Below, one piece after another: positions 6,878 through 64,000 of a stretch of 64,000 nt of DNA. The position numbers were made by a program, and so were the translations under genes. Each line of letters opens with the position of its first letter. Within the stretch, counting starts at the first letter, position 1. A model generated the notes under the pieces. It saw nothing but the letters and a program-made list of their open reading frames with translations, was not told where the DNA came from and did not search any database. The DNA is from Lucifuga dentata (taxonomy: Eukaryota > Chordata > Actinopteri > Ophidiiformes > Bythitidae). The stretch covers positions 1 through 64,000 of the forward strand of contig VXCM01002504.1 in assembly GCA_014773175.1 (NCBI GenBank). Direction: 5' to 3'.

Positions 6878-7538
6878 CCATCTCATAGGGACATCGCAGC
6901 TCAGAATTGACTCCTGACCTGACCGGCTGCGGTCCCTGCGATGGAAAACACACGCATATTATCCATTCCTAAGTATTTGTATTTGGAGTATTTGGAGCTT
7001 CATGCTACCAGAACATTTAAATTCTCAACTGCTAGTAAACACCAACAGTGATAAATGCTGACAGATCTCAGCTCACATCCCAGAAATTCTGATCACTCAT
7101 AAACCACAAGTCTAAAATACTGCTGCTATAGAAGTTGTCTGCTTGTGTAACAGCGAGTTCAGTTGAATCCAGCTGTGAAAACCGGTCATGAGCAGATAAC
7201 ACGTCTGTAAGAAGCCTGGCAGCGTGCACGGCTTCTGTAAACGGTGACTGCCCTCATGTGGAAGAAACAACCTTCTGACTTTTAAACCAAAACTCTGACA
7301 TACAAACAGATCTACACTAAAACCAAACACTTTAAGAAGAAGAACTATAATTCCATATATGAAAGAAGAGCTGATTTCACCAACAATCACAAAAAAAAAA
7401 AAAAAANAAAAAAAAAAAAAAATACTACAACACCGCTGATTATCCAGCAGCTTTATTTTCTTATGGGTTTTAATCCCAGAGCTGGAAAATGATTCCTGAA
7501 CAGAACAGGCATAAATAAATAATAATAATAACAACAAC

Positions 7539-7570
<32 letters not shown>

Positions 7571-7606
7571 NAACAGGCATAAATAAATAATAATAATAAC
7601 AACAAC

Positions 7607-7641
<35 letters not shown>

Positions 7642-12282: not shown

Positions 12283-47674
<35,392 letters not shown>

Positions 47675-48661: not shown

Positions 48662-50623
48662 TCACGGGTCAAACCGGACGTCCTGAAGCCGACTGAAGCA
48701 GCGTCCGTTTAGGCGGGAGAAGGACGCAAACACGCCACCGCCGCCGCCGTCAGATTCACTGAGAGTTCCATCGACGTGGACGACGACGGGCCGTGACCCC
48801 AGCAGCGTCTCTCCGTCAGGCCAGCGCAGACCCAGGTGATGCCGATGAGCCTGCAGCACGTCAGACACAAATACTGTCAATCACCAAAGCTCTTAAAGGA
48901 CCATACCGCTGAATCTGTCTGCCGATCATTTTCCAAAACATACTATTGGAGCAGTAAATATTAGAGTTGTTTTTCCTACGTTCCAGACGGTCATCACAGC
49001 GAACAAGAAAACATCAATTATTTGTCAAAGTCACTTAATTTTACTTAATTTTTGGATTCAGCGGAACAAAACAAACGTCTCGGCCAGCGAATAAAGTCCC
49101 AGAAGACAGATTTTACAGAGAAATGAAAACAAGTGTTAGCAGGCAAAACAATGAATTTTACGGTGGATTTATCACCTGAACATTTAGTTATTTATTGTTT
49201 ATTTGGCAGGGACGATACATATAACCTGCCAAATCTGAATCTGACGATACAGACAACTCTGTCACGGACAAATGTGGAAATTCCAATGTATAATTTGATT
49301 TAGAAATATTAGGGGATTTGGCAAAATAACATGAAAACTAAATATGGTTTTATTTAGGAAAAAGGTTTGCAGCAACATAAGATGCAGCGCACACTACAGG
49401 CCAGAAGTCTGAGGCCACGCCCACATTTATAAAAATAAATCATCAATACACTGTTTGTTTTACAGTTTATTACACAGGAAATGACAAAAATCTATAAAAT
49501 AAATGTCAGTAGTTAGTTTTGTAGAAGAATTAGTCACATCAAAGCTCTGAAGTCATTTCAGGCTCAGACTTTGGTTTGGTNTTATAGAAGAATTAGTCAC
49601 ATCAAAGCTCTGAAGTCATTTCAGGCTCAGACTTTGGTTTGGTCAAAGAAACCCCCTCTGGCCAATCAGAATTCTCAAACCTTTTGCGTCTCTTTTGATT
49701 GGATATAATTTTGGCAGAATTCTGATGATCGTTTCCTCTTGAAGAATGAAATTCTGACCAGTAACTGGTAAACCGGATGGAATCGCGTGTCTTTGAAAGA
49801 TGGAATGTAATTCTCTTTCTTCGTCATTCCTTTAAGTTGATGCTGATGCTGTTGCTCTGCAGCCACGCCCCCCATGGGGGGCGTGGCTGCAGAGCAACAG
49901 CATCAGCATCACCAAACAGTGTATTGCTGATTTTTTTTTTTAATCTGGAGGTGGCCTCAGACTTCTGGCCTGTAGTGTATAAATATTTGCAGGTAGTATT
50001 TATTGGGCTAAAACATGTAAAACCACATGTATGGCCCTTTAAAAAAAAGCTTTAAATTGAGTGTGATGGTTCCTGTGTAAAGCCGTCGTACCTTCAGCAG
50101 CGTTCCGTCGCTGCAGTGCCACACGATGCCCTCCACCCGACCCTCCGGACGCTCCTGGAACCAGACACTCAGCTGCTGGAAATCCACCAGCGGGGCGTTT
50201 CCGATCCGCAGGGCGCCATGCGGCACCAGGAAGTGGACGGGCTGCTTCTTACTGCCGAGTCCTGTCAGGAAGTTTAGCTACGTTCAGAAACACAGCGTCA
50301 CCATGAAGCAGCAGAGCGACTGAGCTGCAGAATATTTAAATATCCACGTTGTCAAGAAAACACACTACAGACGTGCTGCAAATCATCACGCCATCAGCTG
50401 ACAGGATGAATCTGATTGGCTGTAGATCATCATGTCATCAGCTGACAGGATGAATCTGATTGGCTGTAGATCATCATGTCATCAGCTGACAGGATGAATC
50501 TGATTGGCTGACAGACGCCTCATGCAGACGTCTAACACTTAAACTTCTCAAATTTTACAAAGGAAATTTCTCGCTACATATTCTGTTTTATTTTCATTGC
50601 TCTGTTTATAGAGCACGCGCACA

Positions 50624-55392: not shown

Positions 55393-56950
55393 ATGGCCAA
55401 TCAGGTGTCAGCGTCTCTGCCGGAGCGAACCTTCCAGAACCAGCTCAGCCTGCCGCCGCTGCCCGTCCCACCACTAGAGGGCAGCCTCTCCAAGTACCTG
55501 GAGGCAGGTAAGCCCTGCAGCTTCGTACAGCCTGATGTGTTTCTGAGGCGGGCTGAAGTTTGTACCATCAGATCATCCTCTGGAAACTTTTTCATTCATT
55601 AAGATTATAATAATAATGATTGTGATTGTTTGATAATCGATAATGAGCCTTTAACACCAACATGCTGATGTATCTGTAATGAGCTCAAAGCATCTCCATG
55701 CTGCAGCTAAGACGACTTTGATGAACTTTGCATTGTCGCGTTTCCAGTGCGTCCCTTTGCATCTGAAGAAGAATTCCAGGCGACAGTGAACACTGTGAGG
55801 AAGTTTCAGGAAGGCGTCGGTGAAGAGCTGCACCAGAAACTTCTGCAGCGAGCGAAGACGAAGAGGAACTGGGTTCGTACCTGAGCTGGAAACTTTTGCC
55901 TTTGGTCTTAGATGTCGTCTGTCTTTCTTCTTATTATTATTATCTTTCTTTTAAAGGAGCATACCGGCGATTTGTTTCAGCCCGATAAATACAAATTGTT
56001 TATATGTTACGTTATTAACAACCATTTCCCAAAACAGACTGCTGGAGCAGTACATTTAGATTGTTTTTCCTACCTTCCAGACTGCCCTTGGTTTCAGTTC
56101 CTCCCAGGAGAAGACGACTTTTACAGAGAAATTAAAATGAACGTCCCTTCTACAAGCGTGCATATCTGTTGGAAGGCAAAACACTGATTTTTAAGGTGTG
56201 TGTATCACCTGAACATTAGATTTTGAAAGATTCGGGAATTTGGAAAAATAGCAGGAAAACTAAAATACGGTTTTGTTTTGGAAATTGGTTGTCAGTAATG
56301 TAACATGTATGTAGGTTGTATGTATTGGGATCAAACATGCAGACAGTCTGGTGTGGTCCTTTAAACATTTGAATGTCTCAGCTTGAAGAGTGGTGGTTTG
56401 ACACGGCGTACCTGGAGGTCCGCATCCCCTCGCAGCTGAACGTGAACTTCGGCGGTCCGGCGCCGTACCTGGAGACGTGCTGGCCCCCCGCAGAGGGAAC
56501 GCAGCTGCAGCGCTGCAGCATCAGCACGTGGCACACGCTACAGTACTGGAACCTGATCCGCACGTAAGACGCTCTCAGTGGGCGGGATTCATAAAACACA
56601 GCGCCAGACTGAACGTATCGATGAGGGCAAATATTTTCACGCATAAACATCTGCTACCGACATTTTTTATTGTTTGACCTGAAAGAGGCGTTGCTACGGT
56701 GTTTCCTTATTTACATGTCAGGAAGTGATTCATAAACACACCAGCACAAATGTATGTGTTTCAGTCTGACGGTAAATTTCATCATATGAAATGTGATGAT
56801 GTTTAAACTGTATTTGTCTCGCGTGTCAGTGATCAATAATCAATAACTTTGATAGATAAAAATACTCAGCTGATCAGTTTATTTAAATTGAGAGTTTTGA
56901 TCTGATCTCGCACATTCTAGTGGCTCTGAGACTCTTCATCAAGACTCATC

Positions 56951-57014
<64 letters not shown>

Positions 57015-58396
57015 NCACACACACACCTCCCGTGCTAACCCTAACAGCAGATGAATCAGGATAAATTATGACTCTAAACATGAAGCAGCTCATTAACATG
57101 CTGATCTTCATCGGTTTTTACCTGAGAGTCACCTAGCAGCAACGCGTCGCTAACGATGCTCTGATTAACATGACAGAAGCTTTATAACGAGCTTCATGAT
57201 CATAGCATGTCATGTAGCTACTAGAGAAACGAGTATCCGCTACGGATAATGTACTTTTTATGAGCACGAGTACCATCTGAGTCCGTACTTGTTAAAAAAA
57301 TCTGATTGGTTAGCTCTTACTAGCTCAGCGTCACATGGTTGCATGATCGTCCAGGCAGCCAATCACAGAGCTCCTCTCTACACAGAGCTGCTGCTGCTGC
57401 TCCACACAACCCACAGCCACTCTGTCCATGCTAGCATAGTAGCATCTATTAGCTATAGTTTAGCATAGTAGCATCTATTAGCTATAGTTTAGCATAGTAG
57501 CATCTATTAGCTATAGTTTAGCATAGTAGCATCTATTAGCTATAGTTTAGCATAGTAGCATCTATTAGCTATAGTTTAGCATAGTATAATCTATTAGCTA
57601 TAGTTTAGCATAGTAGCATCGATTAGCTATAGTTTAGCATAATAGCATCTATTAGCTATAGTTTAGCATAGTATAATCTATTAGCTATAGTTTAGCATAG
57701 TAGCATCGATTAGCTATAGTTGCTATTCTCAGATTCATCTTAACGTTATTCTCCGTCCACAGCTAAACAAACACACATTCATTTACTGTGGACATTCACA
57801 CGCAACATACTAACGCACAATTCTACTAGCTGCTACTAGCTTCTAGGCTAACTAGCCAGTTAGCTAGCGATTCTTAATGCTCTGTGTTAAGCTCCGCCCA
57901 CTTCCGGGTCAAGCCACGCCCATCCAAGTACAGATAGGGGTAATTTAGTTGAACGGATACAGATTACTCGCTCATACCTCGTAGCTACCATGGTTTTTTT
58001 TAGGAATCCCGCTGGAAATGTTTTTGTGTTTTAAGCAGAAGTTTCTCACTCCATGCATGAACTCACCTGTTTCCTGTCGTCAGGGAGAAACTTCCTCCTC
58101 AGAAATCTGGCGACGTGCCGTTAGACATGGACCAGTTCAGGATGCTGTTCTGCACCTGCAAAGTGCCTGGAGTTCAGAAAGACACCATCCGCAACTACTT
58201 CAAGACAGGTACGATACCTGCTTTAATGTACACACACCTGAACAGGCCGTTTCCTACCTGATGTGTTGCCTCTGTCACAGAGAGCGAGGGTCCGAGCCCC
58301 TCCCACATCATCGCCATGTGTCGCGGACGGATCTTCACATTTGATGCAGTTTATGACGGGCAAATTCTAACTCCACCTGAACTGTTCAGGTATTCA

Positions 58397-58973: not shown

Positions 58974-61900
58974 GTGTGTGTCCTCTCTGCAGGCAGCTGA
59001 GCTTCGTGCAGCAGCGCTGCGATGCCGAGGCGGAGGGAGACGGCGTTGCCGCTCTGACCTCAGAGGAACGGTCGCGCTGGGCGAAGGTGAGCAGCAAAAA
59101 AAAAAAAAAANAAAAAAAAAAAAAAAACAGAAATTAGGTCAAACAGGAAATAGAACATGTTTCATTAGATCAGAGCGCACCTGAGGATTAATGATGTCAC
59201 TTCCTGTGTCTGCAGGTGCGAGAGCATCTGATCAGCATCGACCCGCACAACAAGACGATCCTGGAGACGATTCAGAGCAGCCTGTTCACCGTCTGTCTGG
59301 ACGCCGCCAAGCCGTACTCCACGCCGCACAACTACACCAACGTACGGCCGCTCCGCTCCTCTAAAGGAGCACGCCGCTGGTTTTGTATGTTTGAGCCCCG
59401 TACATACATCCTGCATACATGTTACGTTACAAACATACGACTGGATGGCGTTGGTTTCAGTTCTTTGTTATTAAATCATCTTCAGAGATGTGAAACGTGC
59501 TGAGATTAATAATCATTAAAAAAAAAAAAGATTAATAATCACAACTTTCCTTTGNTGAAACGTGCTGAGATTAATAATCATTAAAAAAAAAAAAGATTAA
59601 TAATCACAACTTTCCTTTGTCAAAGTGATTTAACTGATCAAACACGGAGCTACATGTGAGAAAACACACGTCTCCGCCATGGAATATTCAGTAGCTCCAG
59701 GAGAAGTCGGCTTTTACTGAAAATGACCGTGGCGTCTGTTTTCAGACGTACGTATCAGCAATTCTGAGTGATTTTGTAAAAATTAGATGATTTAGAAAAA
59801 TAAACACGGTTTTATGCTTTGGAAAATAGGTGTCAGGAACATTACATGTATGTGGTATTTATAGGGCTCAAACATGCAAAACCACCAGTATGGTCCTTTA
59901 AGACTGCAGTATTTACCGTGCAAATAACAGTCTGGTAATTATGTGTCTGACTGACCTTTGAACTCTGCAGATGGCCCTGCAGGCTCTGACGGGCGACCCG
60001 ACCGTTCGCTGGGGAGACAAATCCTACAACTCCATCAGCTTCTCCGACGGAACCTTCGGATCCAACTGTGACGTGCGTGTGTGCATGTGTGTGTGCGTGT
60101 GTTTGTGTGTGCATGTGTGTGTGTGTGTGCGTGCGTGTGTGGTGAATGAAACAGGATGTGTGACCCTGTTTTTTTTGTGACGATGCTAATAATGGAACAG
60201 GAAGTTGTTTTTTTTTAAAAATGGAACAGGAAGTGATCGTCTGTTAAAGTTACTTCATAATAAACTTTTCATACATTTCTGCTCTGTAACGTTAAAACTC
60301 AGATCGACCTCGACACGTCTGAGATAAACAACGTTTCATAAAGCCGTTGATGCTTTTTCTTTGTTTATATTTAGCATCATTGTTTATGTTTAGCATCATT
60401 GTTTATATTTAGCATCATTATTTATGTTTAGCATCATTATTTATATTTAGCATCATTATTTATGTTTAGCATCATTATTTATATTTAGCTTCATTATTTA
60501 TATTTAGCATCATTATTTATGTTTAGCATCATTATTTATATTTAGCATCATTATTTATGTTTAGCATCATTGTTTATATTTAGCATCATTATTTATGTTT
60601 AGCATCATTGTTTATGTTTAGCATCATTGTTTATGTTTAGCATCATTATTTATGTTTAGCAGCATTATTTATGTTTAGCATCATTGTTTATATTTAGCAT
60701 CATTATTTATGTTTAGCATCATTATTTATATTTAGCATCATTATCTTGCTGCTGTTTTATATTTTATATCTGTATGAAATATGAGCACAAAGAGTCAAAA
60801 ACCAAAGTCATGTTTAAAGTCTGAAGAACATCATTCTTAGGGGTATTATGCATTGGTTGTTTTGCAGCATGCGCCATATGACGTGTTGATTGTTTTGCAG
60901 CATGCGCTGTATGACGTGTTGATTGGTTGTTTTGCAGCATGCGCCGTATGACGTGTGCATTGGTTGTTTTGCAGCATGCGCCATATGACGTGTTGATTGT
61001 TTTGCAGCATGCGCTGTATGACGTGTTGATTGGTTGTTTTGCAGCATGCGCCGTATGACGTGTTCATTGGTTGTTTTGCAGCATGCGCCATATGACGTGT
61101 TGATTGTTTTGCAGCATGCGCTGTATGACGTGTTGATTGGTTGTTTTGCAGCATGCGCCGTATGACGTGTTCATTGGTTGTTTTGCAGCATGCGCCATAT
61201 GACGTGTTGATTGTTTTGCAGCATGCGCTGTATGACGTGTTGATTGGTTGTTTTGCAGCATGCGCCGTATGACGTGTTCATTGGTTGTTTTGCAGCATGC
61301 GCCATATGACGTGTTGATTGTTTTGCAGCATGCGCTGTATGACGTGTTGATTGGTTGTTTTGCAGCATGCGCCGTATGACGTGTTCATTGGTTGTTTTGC
61401 AGCATGCGCCATATGACGTGTTGATTGTTTTGCAGCATGCGCTGTATGACGTGTTGATTGGTTGTTTTGCAGCATGCGCCGTATGACGTGTTCATTGGTT
61501 GTTTTGCAGCATGCGCCATATGACGTGTTGATTGTTTTGCAGCATGCGCTGTATGACGTGTTGATTGGTTGTTTTGCAGCATGCGCCGTATGACGTGTTC
61601 ATTGGTTGTTTTGCAGCATGCACCATATGACGTGTTGATTGTTTTGCAGCATGCTCCGTATGACGTGTTGATTGGTTGTTTTGCAGCATGCACCATATGA
61701 CGTGTTGATTGTTTTGCAGCATGCACCGTATGACATGTTGATTGTTTTGCAGCATGCACCATATGACGCCATGGTTCTGGTGTGTCTGTGTCATTATGTG
61801 GATCAGCANTTGTTTTGCAGCATGCACCATATGACGCCATGGTTCTGGTGTGTCTGTGTCATTATGTGGATCAGCAGCTCAGAGCCTCAGACGGCAAATG

Positions 61901-64000
61901 GAAGGTAAACTTCCTGTTACACAGAAACCCATACTTCCTCCATCAGCTTTTATTTTTATTATCAGTTAAATTAAAGTTGACCTTGTGACCTTTTTGGCGT
62001 TGTCAGGGCTTGGACGCCGTCCGGCCGATGCCATTTCCTGAGGAGCTGGTGTTCACTGTGGACGAAAAAGTTCGGAACGACATCAGCCACGCCAAGCAGC
62101 AATACCTGGAGACGGTGAGCCGATATTAAACATCAAATGCCGAGGGAAATGATGTAACCATGGCAACAGCTGCATCTGTTCTGTTTTAACAGACGCAGGA
62201 CCTGCAGGTGGTTTGTTACGCCTTCAGCGGCTTCGGAAAAGCAGCAATCAAACAGAGGAAGCTGCATCCTGACACCTTCGTTCAGATGGCACTGCAGCTA
62301 GCTTACTACAGGATGCACGGAAGGTATGGGACTCTTCCTCATCAGGTGTGTTCATCAGATGTGGGCGGAGCAGGGAGAGATGGCTCAAACATGCTAAATC
62401 AGCAGTATGGTCCTTTAAAATCCAGCCATTATTTTTCCACAATACTTGTCAAGAACTGAAGTGTTGGACGTGAAAACTTTGAGCAGGTGGAGGTGAAACG
62501 TCAGCGTGTTTTTAACAGACGTCATGCCAGACAAACACGGCTGCAGCATGGTGACATGTCAGCGTGTTTTTAACAGACGTCATGCCAGACGGACACGGCT
62601 GCAGCATGGTGACGTCAGCGTGTTTTTAACAGACGTCACGTCAGACGGACACGGCTGCAGCACGGATAAAACAGACATCAGAAATAAATAACCACGTATC
62701 TTCTCTCAGGCTGGGAAGCTGTTACGAGACGGCGATGACTCGCATGTTTTACCACGGCAGGACGGAGACCATGAGGCCGTGCACGCAGGAGGCGGCGGCC
62801 TGGTGTCACGCCATGCAGGATGCCACGAGCAGCGTGAGTTTATCTGAGAGACGCACAGCCATGTCAGAACATGTTTGTTTATCTGGGAGAATGATGAATT
62901 CATACGGTTCCTCTCAGGCTGATGCCCGGAGGAACGCCATGATGCTCGCCTTCAGCAAACACAACAAACTGATGGCGGAAGCTCAGGACGGACACGGTGA
63001 GGACGTCTCACAGGACGTGTTTCAGCTTCAGATTCCTGTCTCTGCCTTCAGTTTGAATGTTTCCTCACGTCTCTGCAGGCTTTGACAGACATCTTCTCGG
63101 GCTTTACCTCATCGCCAAAGAGGAGGGACGGCCCGTTCCAGACCTCTTCACCGATCCGCTCTATGCTAAGAGGTACCAACGCTGCTCCTTTAAATTACAT
63201 CCCATCAAATCACCATGGCAACGTTTCCATGTCTACCGTTGTGTTTTTCTGCTTTAATAACCACAGAAATCCATTTTTCTGCCGTCATGTGAATCCAGTA
63301 TAACTGATGCCTCATTATTGACCCTTAGATTGACCCTTAGACTGACCTTAGATTGACCCTGGGTGCTGTGGGAGTGTGGGTGGGGTCTGTGGGTTTGCTG
63401 AGTGGGCTGTGTTTTTCTGCAGCGGCGGCGGTGGAAACTTTGTGCTGTCCAGCAGCCTGGTGGGCTACACTAAGGTCCTGGGGGTCGTAGCTCCCATGGT
63501 GTACCAGGGCTACGGCTTCTTCTACTGCATCAGAGACGACAGGTGAGCGTCGACACGCCGTCACAGCGCCGTTACAACACGCTGTCACAACACGCCGTCA
63601 TAGCACAGCTATTATAGCCATTATAACACATGCTGTGCTGAGTAGGGCTCCTTAAAGGACCATGCCAGTGATTTTGCACATTTGAGCCCAACAGATACTA
63701 CCCGCATACACATTACTGAAAACCATTTTCCAAAACTAAAGCCATGTTTTATTTTCCTGTCATTTTGCTGCGCTCCCTAATGTTTAAAAATCAGACGTTC
63801 AGGTGATACATACACCTTCAAATTCAGTGTTTCACCTGCTGACAGGAATGTTTGAACGTACGCTGCAGGCTGAGTTAAATGTGAACTCGTCCCGGATTTA
63901 AATCTGGTTTTCCTGCAGGATAGTGGCATCCGTCTCGGCGTGGAAATCGTACCGTCAGACTGACGCCGAGACGCTGTTTCACGTCCTGAGTCGCTGCCTG
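55393..64000 (+). CDS. crot: CROT, peroxisomal carnitine O-octanoyltransferase (lacks last ~12 codons)
   Basis: CROT moves medium-chain acyl groups from CoA to carnitine so that products of peroxisomal beta-oxidation can leave for mitochondria. Exons: 55393-55507, 55748-55872, 56382-56563, 58084-58208, 58281-58389, 58993-59086, 59216-59341, 59971-60072, 61821-61904 (or 61753, see the duplication entry), 62007-62114, 62193-62323, 62710-62833, 62918-62996, 63079-63172, 63423-63542, 63919-64000. They sum to 1800 nt, 600 of about 612 residues. Every junction is phase-consistent, and the protein aligns with human throughout ([55 protein letters not shown]). The catalytic histidine is residue 327, as in human, and is the first codon of the 61821 exon (DHAPYDAM). 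The human S-T-S motif in NFVLSTSLVG reads S-S-S here. The C-terminal peroxisomal signal lies beyond the edge. Confidence 0.98.
55951..56364. mobile_element. MITE copy 17
   Basis: TTAAAGGAGCATACCGGCGA to GTCTGGTGTGGTCCTTTAA in CROT intron 2. Ends 17 bp before the exon at 56382, so its right arm occupies the place of the normal branch-point region. Confidence 0.8.
56587..57160. repeat. Dispersed repeat shared with 38050-38480, with (CA)n and a single N
   Basis: Matches the CEP290 intron-41 copy in several ordered blocks. An (AC)n run at 56957-57028 has N at 57015. Confidence 0.6.
57431..57722. repeat. 30-bp tandem repeat, about 9-10 copies
   Basis: Unit TAGCATAGTAGCATCTATTA plus GCTATAGTTT, with a few TATAATCTA variants. 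Located in CROT intron 3. Confidence 0.95.
58408..58436. repeat. (CA)n microsatellite after CROT exon at 58389
   Basis: CTCTCTCTCACACACA run starting about 12 bp after the donor. Confidence 0.85.
58785..58890. repeat. Short degenerate tandem repeat (CTTAAAGTCACTAAAAGTTC)
   Basis: Five or so degenerate copies of about 22 bp in CROT intron 5. Confidence 0.7.
58938..58982. repeat. (TG)n before the CROT exon at 58993
   Basis: TG units with one CG step run up to CCTCTCTGCAG, the acceptor of the exon. Confidence 0.9.
59092..59127. repeat. Poly-A with single N
   Basis: N at 59111 within an A-run 8 bp after a CROT donor. Confidence 0.85.
59361..59901. mobile_element. MITE copy 18 (near full length, with single-N duplication)
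   Basis: CTAAAGGAGCACGCCGCTGG to CCACCAGTATGGTCCTTTAA. Begins 19 bp after the donor at 59341. 64-bp copies 59491-59554 and 59556-59619 flank N at 59555. Confidence 0.8.
60073..60142. repeat. GTGTGC-rich repeat starting at a CROT donor
   Basis: The donor GAC|GTGCGTGTGTG after the exon ending at 60072 is itself the first part of the GT/GCGT repeat. Confidence 0.85.
60362..60745. repeat. 18-bp tandem repeat TTTATRTTTAGCATCATT, about 21 copies
   Basis: The units differ mainly at TATG/TATA and ATTA/ATTG. Lies in the same CROT intron as the acceptor-derived array. Confidence 0.95.
60850..61752 (+). repeat. Tandem array of CROT splice-acceptor/exon-start units, 25 copies
   Basis: Each unit carries TTGTTTTGCAG followed by CATGCRCCRTATGACG, i.e. 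a pyrimidine tract, an AG acceptor and the first 16 nt of the CROT exon that starts with the catalytic histidine. Twenty-five units precede the real acceptor. Subunits are 33 or 36-37 bp, and three form a higher-order repeat of 107 bp, seen at least five times (about 60960-61600). The units nearest the gene (from 61617) carry CACC like the true exon; those further upstream carry CGCC or CGCTG. Minus-strand open frames ([16 protein letters not shown]) are repeat translation. Confidence 0.95.
61742..61876 (+). repeat. Single-N duplication across the acceptor of the CROT His exon
   Basis: 67-bp copies 61742-61808 and 61810-61876 flank N at 61809. Each includes the acceptor and the first 56 nt of the exon. 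One copy should be removed; the complete exon is 61821-61904. Confidence 0.9.
62380..62418. mobile_element. MITE copy 19 (right-end stub)
   Basis: GGCTCAAACATGCTAAATCA and GCAGTATGGTCCTTTAA only; about 38 bp remain. Confidence 0.6.
62495..62665. repeat. ~58-bp tandem repeat, three copies
   Basis: Units contain GTCAGCGTGTTTTTAACAGA, then CGTCATGCCAGACRGACACG and GCTGCAGCATGG. The TTTTTAACAGACG part resembles the acceptor of the exon at 62193 (TGTTTTAACAG|ACGCAGG). Lies between CROT exons 62323 and 62710. Confidence 0.85.
63652..63860. mobile_element. MITE copy 20 (left part)
   Basis: TTAAAGGACCATGCCAGTGA followed by the family's left arm and the adjacent TTCAGGTGATACATACACCTT segment; the right part is absent. 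Lies in the last CROT intron seen. Confidence 0.7.

Follow-up and report, generated by a model that had tools for sequence, protein, structure and literature searches.

Minisatellite-like tandem duplications spanning an intron-exon boundary, referred to as mirages, have been described in the amphioxus genes BflGb6, BflGb9, Adh3, troponin C and PGBD5 (PMC3087553, PMC3902484), and these two papers report normal splicing of the globin, Adh and troponin C genes bearing duplicated boundaries. Arrays that duplicate a boundary have also been put forward as a possible source of new introns (PMC3087553). Internal tandem repeats located in human segmental duplications consist of ~30-bp minisatellites, some of them at exon-intron boundaries, and such boundary repeats can accompany alternative splicing or new introns (PMC2812944). 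A splice site matching that of the adjoining exon is present in each unit of the VNTR in intron 18 of human ABCA7 (25-bp unit, repeated 23.7 times in the human reference; PMC5954066), and intron 7 of human F7 contains highly homologous 37-bp repeats with donors, of which normally only the most upstream, exon-proximal one is used (PMC6627357). The array analyzed here was found in the crot gene of Lucifuga dentata, a Cuban cavefish that lacks eyes (PMC7826195) and is placed in the ophidiiform family Bythitidae. Every unit of the array contains the 3′ splice site that belongs to exon 9, the exon lying downstream.

The window, that is to say the whole stretch of 64,000 nucleotides under analysis, belongs to an assembly of 597.9 Mb in 8,189 contigs, where it represents bases 1-64000 of an 89,083-base contig. 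The crot gene model comprises 16 coding exons (55393-64039 in contig coordinates) encoding 612 amino acids with no internal stop, and is 100% identical to the deposited L. dentata protein LDENG_00046780 across all 612 residues. With the C-terminal half of the protein as the query, the identity of the gene as crot was established by a match to Pfam PF00755 (E 6.7e-98) and by a match to mouse CROT 1xl7 (E about 2e-134). Query position 6 corresponds to residue 298 of the mouse protein in this alignment and no gaps follow, which places query position 35, the histidine encoded by the first codon of exon 9 (CAT), at residue 327. This histidine, which we take to be the catalytic base of CROT, had been proposed in the original prediction to open the exon exactly, as indeed it does; the exon 8 donor and the exon 9 border put forward at the same time agree with the open 612-residue gene model (Table 1).

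LDENG_00046780 has 40 additional residues ahead of the methionine that starts our model (start codon at 55393). Because an in-frame TAA immediately precedes GGAGAC-ATG at the start of crot, this N-terminal extension would need a separate upstream exon; 612 residues is the size of many other listed fish CROT proteins. Elsewhere, identical translated matches on opposite strands at 27287-27547 and at contig positions 72120-72380 suggest an inverted duplicate or a mobile element.

Table 1. Features of the crot acceptor array and its surroundings, in positions of the window; a slash marks the exon border or its copy.
Feature	Position	Strand	Basis or remark
crot coding exon 8, donor GAC/GTGCGT at 60072/60073	59971-60072	+	gene model, homology
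Minisatellite in the array's own intron, 19-bp unit x 20, TTTATGTTTAGCATCATTA	60364-60744	+	
Array: 25 decoy acceptors and the intron end of the real one, 33/37-nt units around TTGTTTTGCAG/CATGC	60851-61752	+	
Homogenized block, seven 107-bp copies (33+37+37), 0-1 difference	60851-61599	+	
Diverged exon-proximal array end, decoys -4 to -1; the last two (61687, 61720) in frame	61600-61752	+	
Real acceptor with exon 9 nt 1-56, left-hand copy at the seam	61742-61808	+	identical over 67 bp to 61810-61876
Single N between two contigs with a 67-bp end overlap (false duplication)	61809	.	
84-nt coding exon 9 of crot, opening with the CAT of His327 (mouse CROT numbering)	61821-61904	+	gene model, homology
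Large minisatellites	31130-32019 (20/30 bp), 36731-37879 (13 bp), 43281-44494 (9 bp), 57432-57721 (29 bp)		

An exact search for TTGTTTTGCAGCATGC returned 26 sites between 60857 and 61742 and one further site at 61810, whereas base composition predicts about 1.5e-5 sites for a single strand of 64 kb. Across the array, 26 copies of TTGTTTTGCAG/CATGC follow one another at an unbroken spacing of 33 or 37 nt; as the copies were located by means of this exact string, its invariance is not an independent result. Each unit is made up of 17-21 intronic nucleotides and 16 exonic nucleotides and spans the exon-intron boundary, which bears out the original description of the unit as the real acceptor together with the first 16 nt of the exon; TATGACGTGTTGATTG is an example of the word formed where two units meet. 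The spacing repeats in the order 33, 37, 37 nt, yielding the 107-bp higher-order block that had likewise been recognized earlier. Seven of the 107-bp copies differ from one another by 0 or 1 base, and the eighth, exon-proximal copy (61600-61706) shows 5 or 6 differences from the other seven, making for an array that is diverged at its exon edge and hardly so at its 5′ edge (1 difference). Variation restricted to synonymous positions was considered and set aside, third positions representing 2 of the 3 variable columns in the five copied codons, too few to be of use. The motif GCATG, presumably RBFOX-like, occurs 27 times in the intron compared to about 0.9 times per kb elsewhere in the window; this enrichment was given no separate meaning since the motif belongs to the array unit.

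The single N at the exon end of the array is flanked by two stretches of 67 bp, 61742-61808 and 61810-61876, that are the same letter for letter, an addition to the original prediction, which had omitted this seam. Exact overlaps of 62-67 bp were found at 6 of the 15 single-N sites of the window and, with lengths of 48-67 bp, at 13 of the 51 single-N sites in 182,739 bases of control sequence drawn from 19 further stretches of this assembly. Because exact overlaps recur at other single-N sites of the assembly, the duplication at 61809 is taken as an unmerged contig overlap. The TTGTTTTGCAGCATGC sites at 61742 and 61810 are therefore one and the same, and the array, once the seam is collapsed, consists of 25 decoy acceptors and one real acceptor, in keeping with the 25 upstream copies originally counted. 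The presence of two alleles in the reads was also entertained, the right contig beginning exactly where the 33- and 37-nt units diverge; it was given no weight, as this is a single event and overlap lengths vary between seams. Duplications of 59-67 bp around single Ns are located at 7504-7638, 17591-17720, 24175-24303, 44552-44691, 49518-49643 and 59489-59624, those at 17591-17720 and 24175-24303 being coding-like by eye. Such unmerged seams could mislead gene annotation of the L. dentata assembly.

A false 67-bp duplication at the very edge of the array, the frequency of such seams in the assembly and the practical identity of seven copies raise the question of whether a real array was multiplied by the assembler or given a misleadingly wrong length. 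This we consider highly improbable: two unit lengths, differing point changes and a diverged exon-proximal block would be hard to obtain by copying one unit, and the left contig alone holds the array together with 56 nt of the exon. The copy number reported here is that of one draft assembly, in which seven near-identical 107-bp copies are easily mis-counted.

Six arrays with a period of 9 or more and a TRF score above 500 were detected in the 64-kb window, compared to none with a period of 7 or more and a comparable score in the control stretches (183 kb), where 62 rows of shorter period were returned. The 19-bp array at 60364-60744 repeats the acceptor-like TTTAG/CAT, such that AG sites recur in both arrays of intron 8, whose AG dinucleotides total 63. 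A perfect 26-bp run of TTAGGG is found at 40000-40025; the region might be subtelomeric.

As against an unrelated satellite elsewhere in the genome, which the original prediction had named as a potentially better explanation of the unit, the 107-bp unit searched against its own assembly matched the array alone (10 of the 10 matches listed, in a search that skips very common words). A 261-nt piece from the 5′ end of the array had no match among plasmid records. That an unrelated satellite landed beside the exon by chance is an explanation whose probability we place close to negligible; no point in its support was found, the genome search returned one match region, and the unit includes the acceptor of exon 9 itself along with 16 coding nucleotides.

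To compare the boundary with its counterparts, 14 ORFs were collected from public contigs in which the exon 9 motif is preceded by sequence other than exon 8. Thirteen of the 14 read past the exon 9 donor and thus represent unspliced DNA, the exception being P0020, which may not be unspliced DNA; the set is taken to come from other fishes, several of the ORFs possibly sharing one species. No second HAxYD was seen upstream in any of the 14, among them 10 whose upstream part reaches 11 residues or more and could therefore show a 33-nt unit; the reading covered one frame, in which a 37-nt unit adjoining the exon would escape notice. At the real Lucifuga acceptor, the intron end is ATTGTTTTGCAG and reads IVLQ. 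Intron ends of the comparison ORFs read IVL in 5 of 14 cases and VVL, the 37-nt type, in none, with the proviso that 11 of the 14 were found with a query containing LIVLQ (IVL in 3 of these 11), such that IVL may be over-represented; P0101 and P0105, both of the IVL type, were retrieved by a query devoid of intron residues. The acceptor end thus seems to be common to the comparison ORFs and the array not, a distribution that would fit growth of the array outward from the exon.

Outward growth had been part of the original prediction, on the grounds that the units nearest the exon are the most like it. This likeness proved weak. Identity to the real copy along the array (27-nt core, 25 decoys) showed no significant rise towards the exon (Spearman 0.16, p 0.46). 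Of the 4 decoys closest to the exon, however, 3 carry the A found at exon position 6, compared to 0 of the 21 others. It is this position-6 A, together with the IVL intron end of the comparison ORFs, that favors an array grown outward from the exon border. The 0-1 differences separating the 107-bp copies suggest that amplification of the block was recent, unless copies were multiplied by the assembler.

What the decoys would do was next considered from their sequence. Of the 23 positions between -20 and +3, each decoy has 17-22 in common with the real acceptor. TATGAC is found upstream of 25 of the 26 acceptors (all but the first), with its A located 19 or 23 nt ahead of the last base of the AG, which is within branch-point range. 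TATGAC being the copied exon start, each unit supplies the candidate branch point of the next, and we infer that these copies may be used as branch points. Upon joining exon 8 in silico to each decoy, 23 of the 25 reading frames reached a stop 16 or 27 residues past the join. Decoys 61720 and 61687, the nearest to the exon, remained open through the joined exons and would add 11 or 22 residues, respectively, ending in LIVLQ and repeating HAPYD. Comparison at the protein level revealed no array-derived residues and no insert in LDENG_00046780, an entry that may be a gene prediction only. A search of 227 CROT-related proteins (107 from one search and the best 120 of 526, the latter scoring only part of the candidates) revealed neither a doubled H[AS]P[YF][DE] motif nor any of the array peptides sought. 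CD/H[AS]P[YFW] is contiguous in 157 of the 227, and many of the remaining 70, among which P0101 and P0105 are genomic read-through ORFs, are without it.

RNA structure was examined as a feature that might mark out the real site, and predicted openness gave no clear answer. Ranked for openness among the 26 sites under four window settings, the real CAG came 10th, 7th, 10th and 3rd, whereas the 12 nt closing with the real AG came 5th, 1st, 2nd and 1st; the 12-nt ranks lean towards the real site and were given little weight, since every site is predicted to be nearly closed (0.003-0.037 for the real CAG). The whole array is not unusually structured, 20 of 20 shuffles folding at least as well, and the same holds for one 107-nt block (112 of 200 shuffles).

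The array could be functional: its decoys might serve as a poison switch, or CROT forms enlarged by 11 or 22 residues and with a duplicated HAPYD might arise from the nearest two, with the length of the array tuning enzyme output in consequence. The two nearest decoys being in frame and open while all other 23 stop, and the resemblance of the decoys to the real acceptor, would be in line with such a role, as would the observation that in ABCA7 retention of one unit accounts for about 2% of measured isoforms and skipping of exon 19 rises with array length (PMC5954066). The deposited protein, however, is without insert, related mirages are reported without splicing disturbance (PMC3087553, PMC3902484), and shuffled sequences fold at least as well as the array; we regard a functional array as quite unlikely. 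Decidedly unlikely, in our view, is a length-tunable bank of acceptors through which the output of crot, or the form of its protein, would be inherited and would vary among individuals; decoys -1 and -2, used at a low level, would produce an enzyme with a duplicated HAPYD catalytic motif, and the other 23 would serve as poison sites. The 23 decoys that run into a stop could also weaken crot, competing acceptors cutting productive mRNA, a cost that a small cave population might bear where selection is relaxed; relaxed selection is reported for the vision genes of L. dentata (PMC7826195). Given a frame that is wholly intact over 16 exons, in a gene that is not a vision gene, this too appears unlikely.

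The array is probably a near-neutral boundary-spanning minisatellite of the mirage kind, with splicing directed to the exon-proximal acceptor through exon definition. A segment of ~33 nt, made up of ~17 nt from the end of intron 8 and 16 nt from the start of exon 9, would have been duplicated in tandem, and the units would then have diverged through a 4-nt indel, giving the 33- and 37-nt forms, and through a few point changes, several of which are consistent with CpG decay. The three-unit block of 107 bp would later, and recently, have been amplified about seven-fold. Each acceptor but the first is provided with a branch-point-like TATGAC from the exon copy of the preceding unit, a short T-rich tract and an AG. 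The normal protein would still be made, exon definition presumably favoring the acceptor that adjoins the constitutive 84-nt exon and its donor, and most mis-splicing would be cleared by nonsense-mediated decay. An array of this type is most likely close to neutral, and its length probably varies. The intact frame and the insert-free LDENG_00046780 agree with exon-proximal splicing, but are not transcripts; the little-diverged 5′ edge, unlike the diverged boundary units described for BflGb6, counts against this near-neutral mirage.

The kind of array is already known, from the mirages of amphioxus and from the boundary tandem repeats of human duplicated genes. With the mirages, the crot array shares a tandem unit lying across the boundary and splice signals inside the units. 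It differs from them in belonging to a vertebrate gene and in having 25 decoys, compared to 6 and 3 units in the two haplotypes of BflGb6, in its units of 33 and 37 nt assembled into a 107-bp block, where mirage units measure 150-160 bp and those of Adh3 10-72 bp, and in its branch-point-like motif, which is contributed by the exon copy. The ABCA7 VNTR, in contrast to the crot array, is on the donor side, where it begins at the GT of exon 18, and effects on splicing and expression have been measured there (PMC5954066). The F7 repeats also differ in being on the donor side, and their number is variable (PMC6627357). The regular site is the exon-proximal one in both F7 and ABCA7, to which the proposed choice of the exon-proximal acceptor in crot may be likened. 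The human internal repeats, for their part, have 4 units on average and are found in recently duplicated genes (PMC2812944). Among the top-ranked titles and abstract openings of the open-licence literature, we noticed no vertebrate acceptor-side array of this size, although the repeats of PMC2812944 may include acceptor-side cases.

With decoys and real site near-identical, position is isolated as the variable, since use might fall on the first AG, on the AG nearest the exon or on several of them, and the crot array offers a natural test of splice-site choice among near-identical sites. According to the genome paper, the transcriptome of L. dentata (GIAU01) and reads from its sister species Lucifuga gibarensis (PRJNA610231), estimated there to have diverged 4.1 My ago, are publicly available (PMC7826195); these data could answer which acceptor is chosen. 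What is new is the case itself: a fish gene, the acceptor side, 25 decoys, a unit containing the codon of a catalytic residue, and only two decoys that preserve the frame. The crot array thus stands as a vertebrate acceptor-side boundary duplication with far more copies than the lancelet globin examples.
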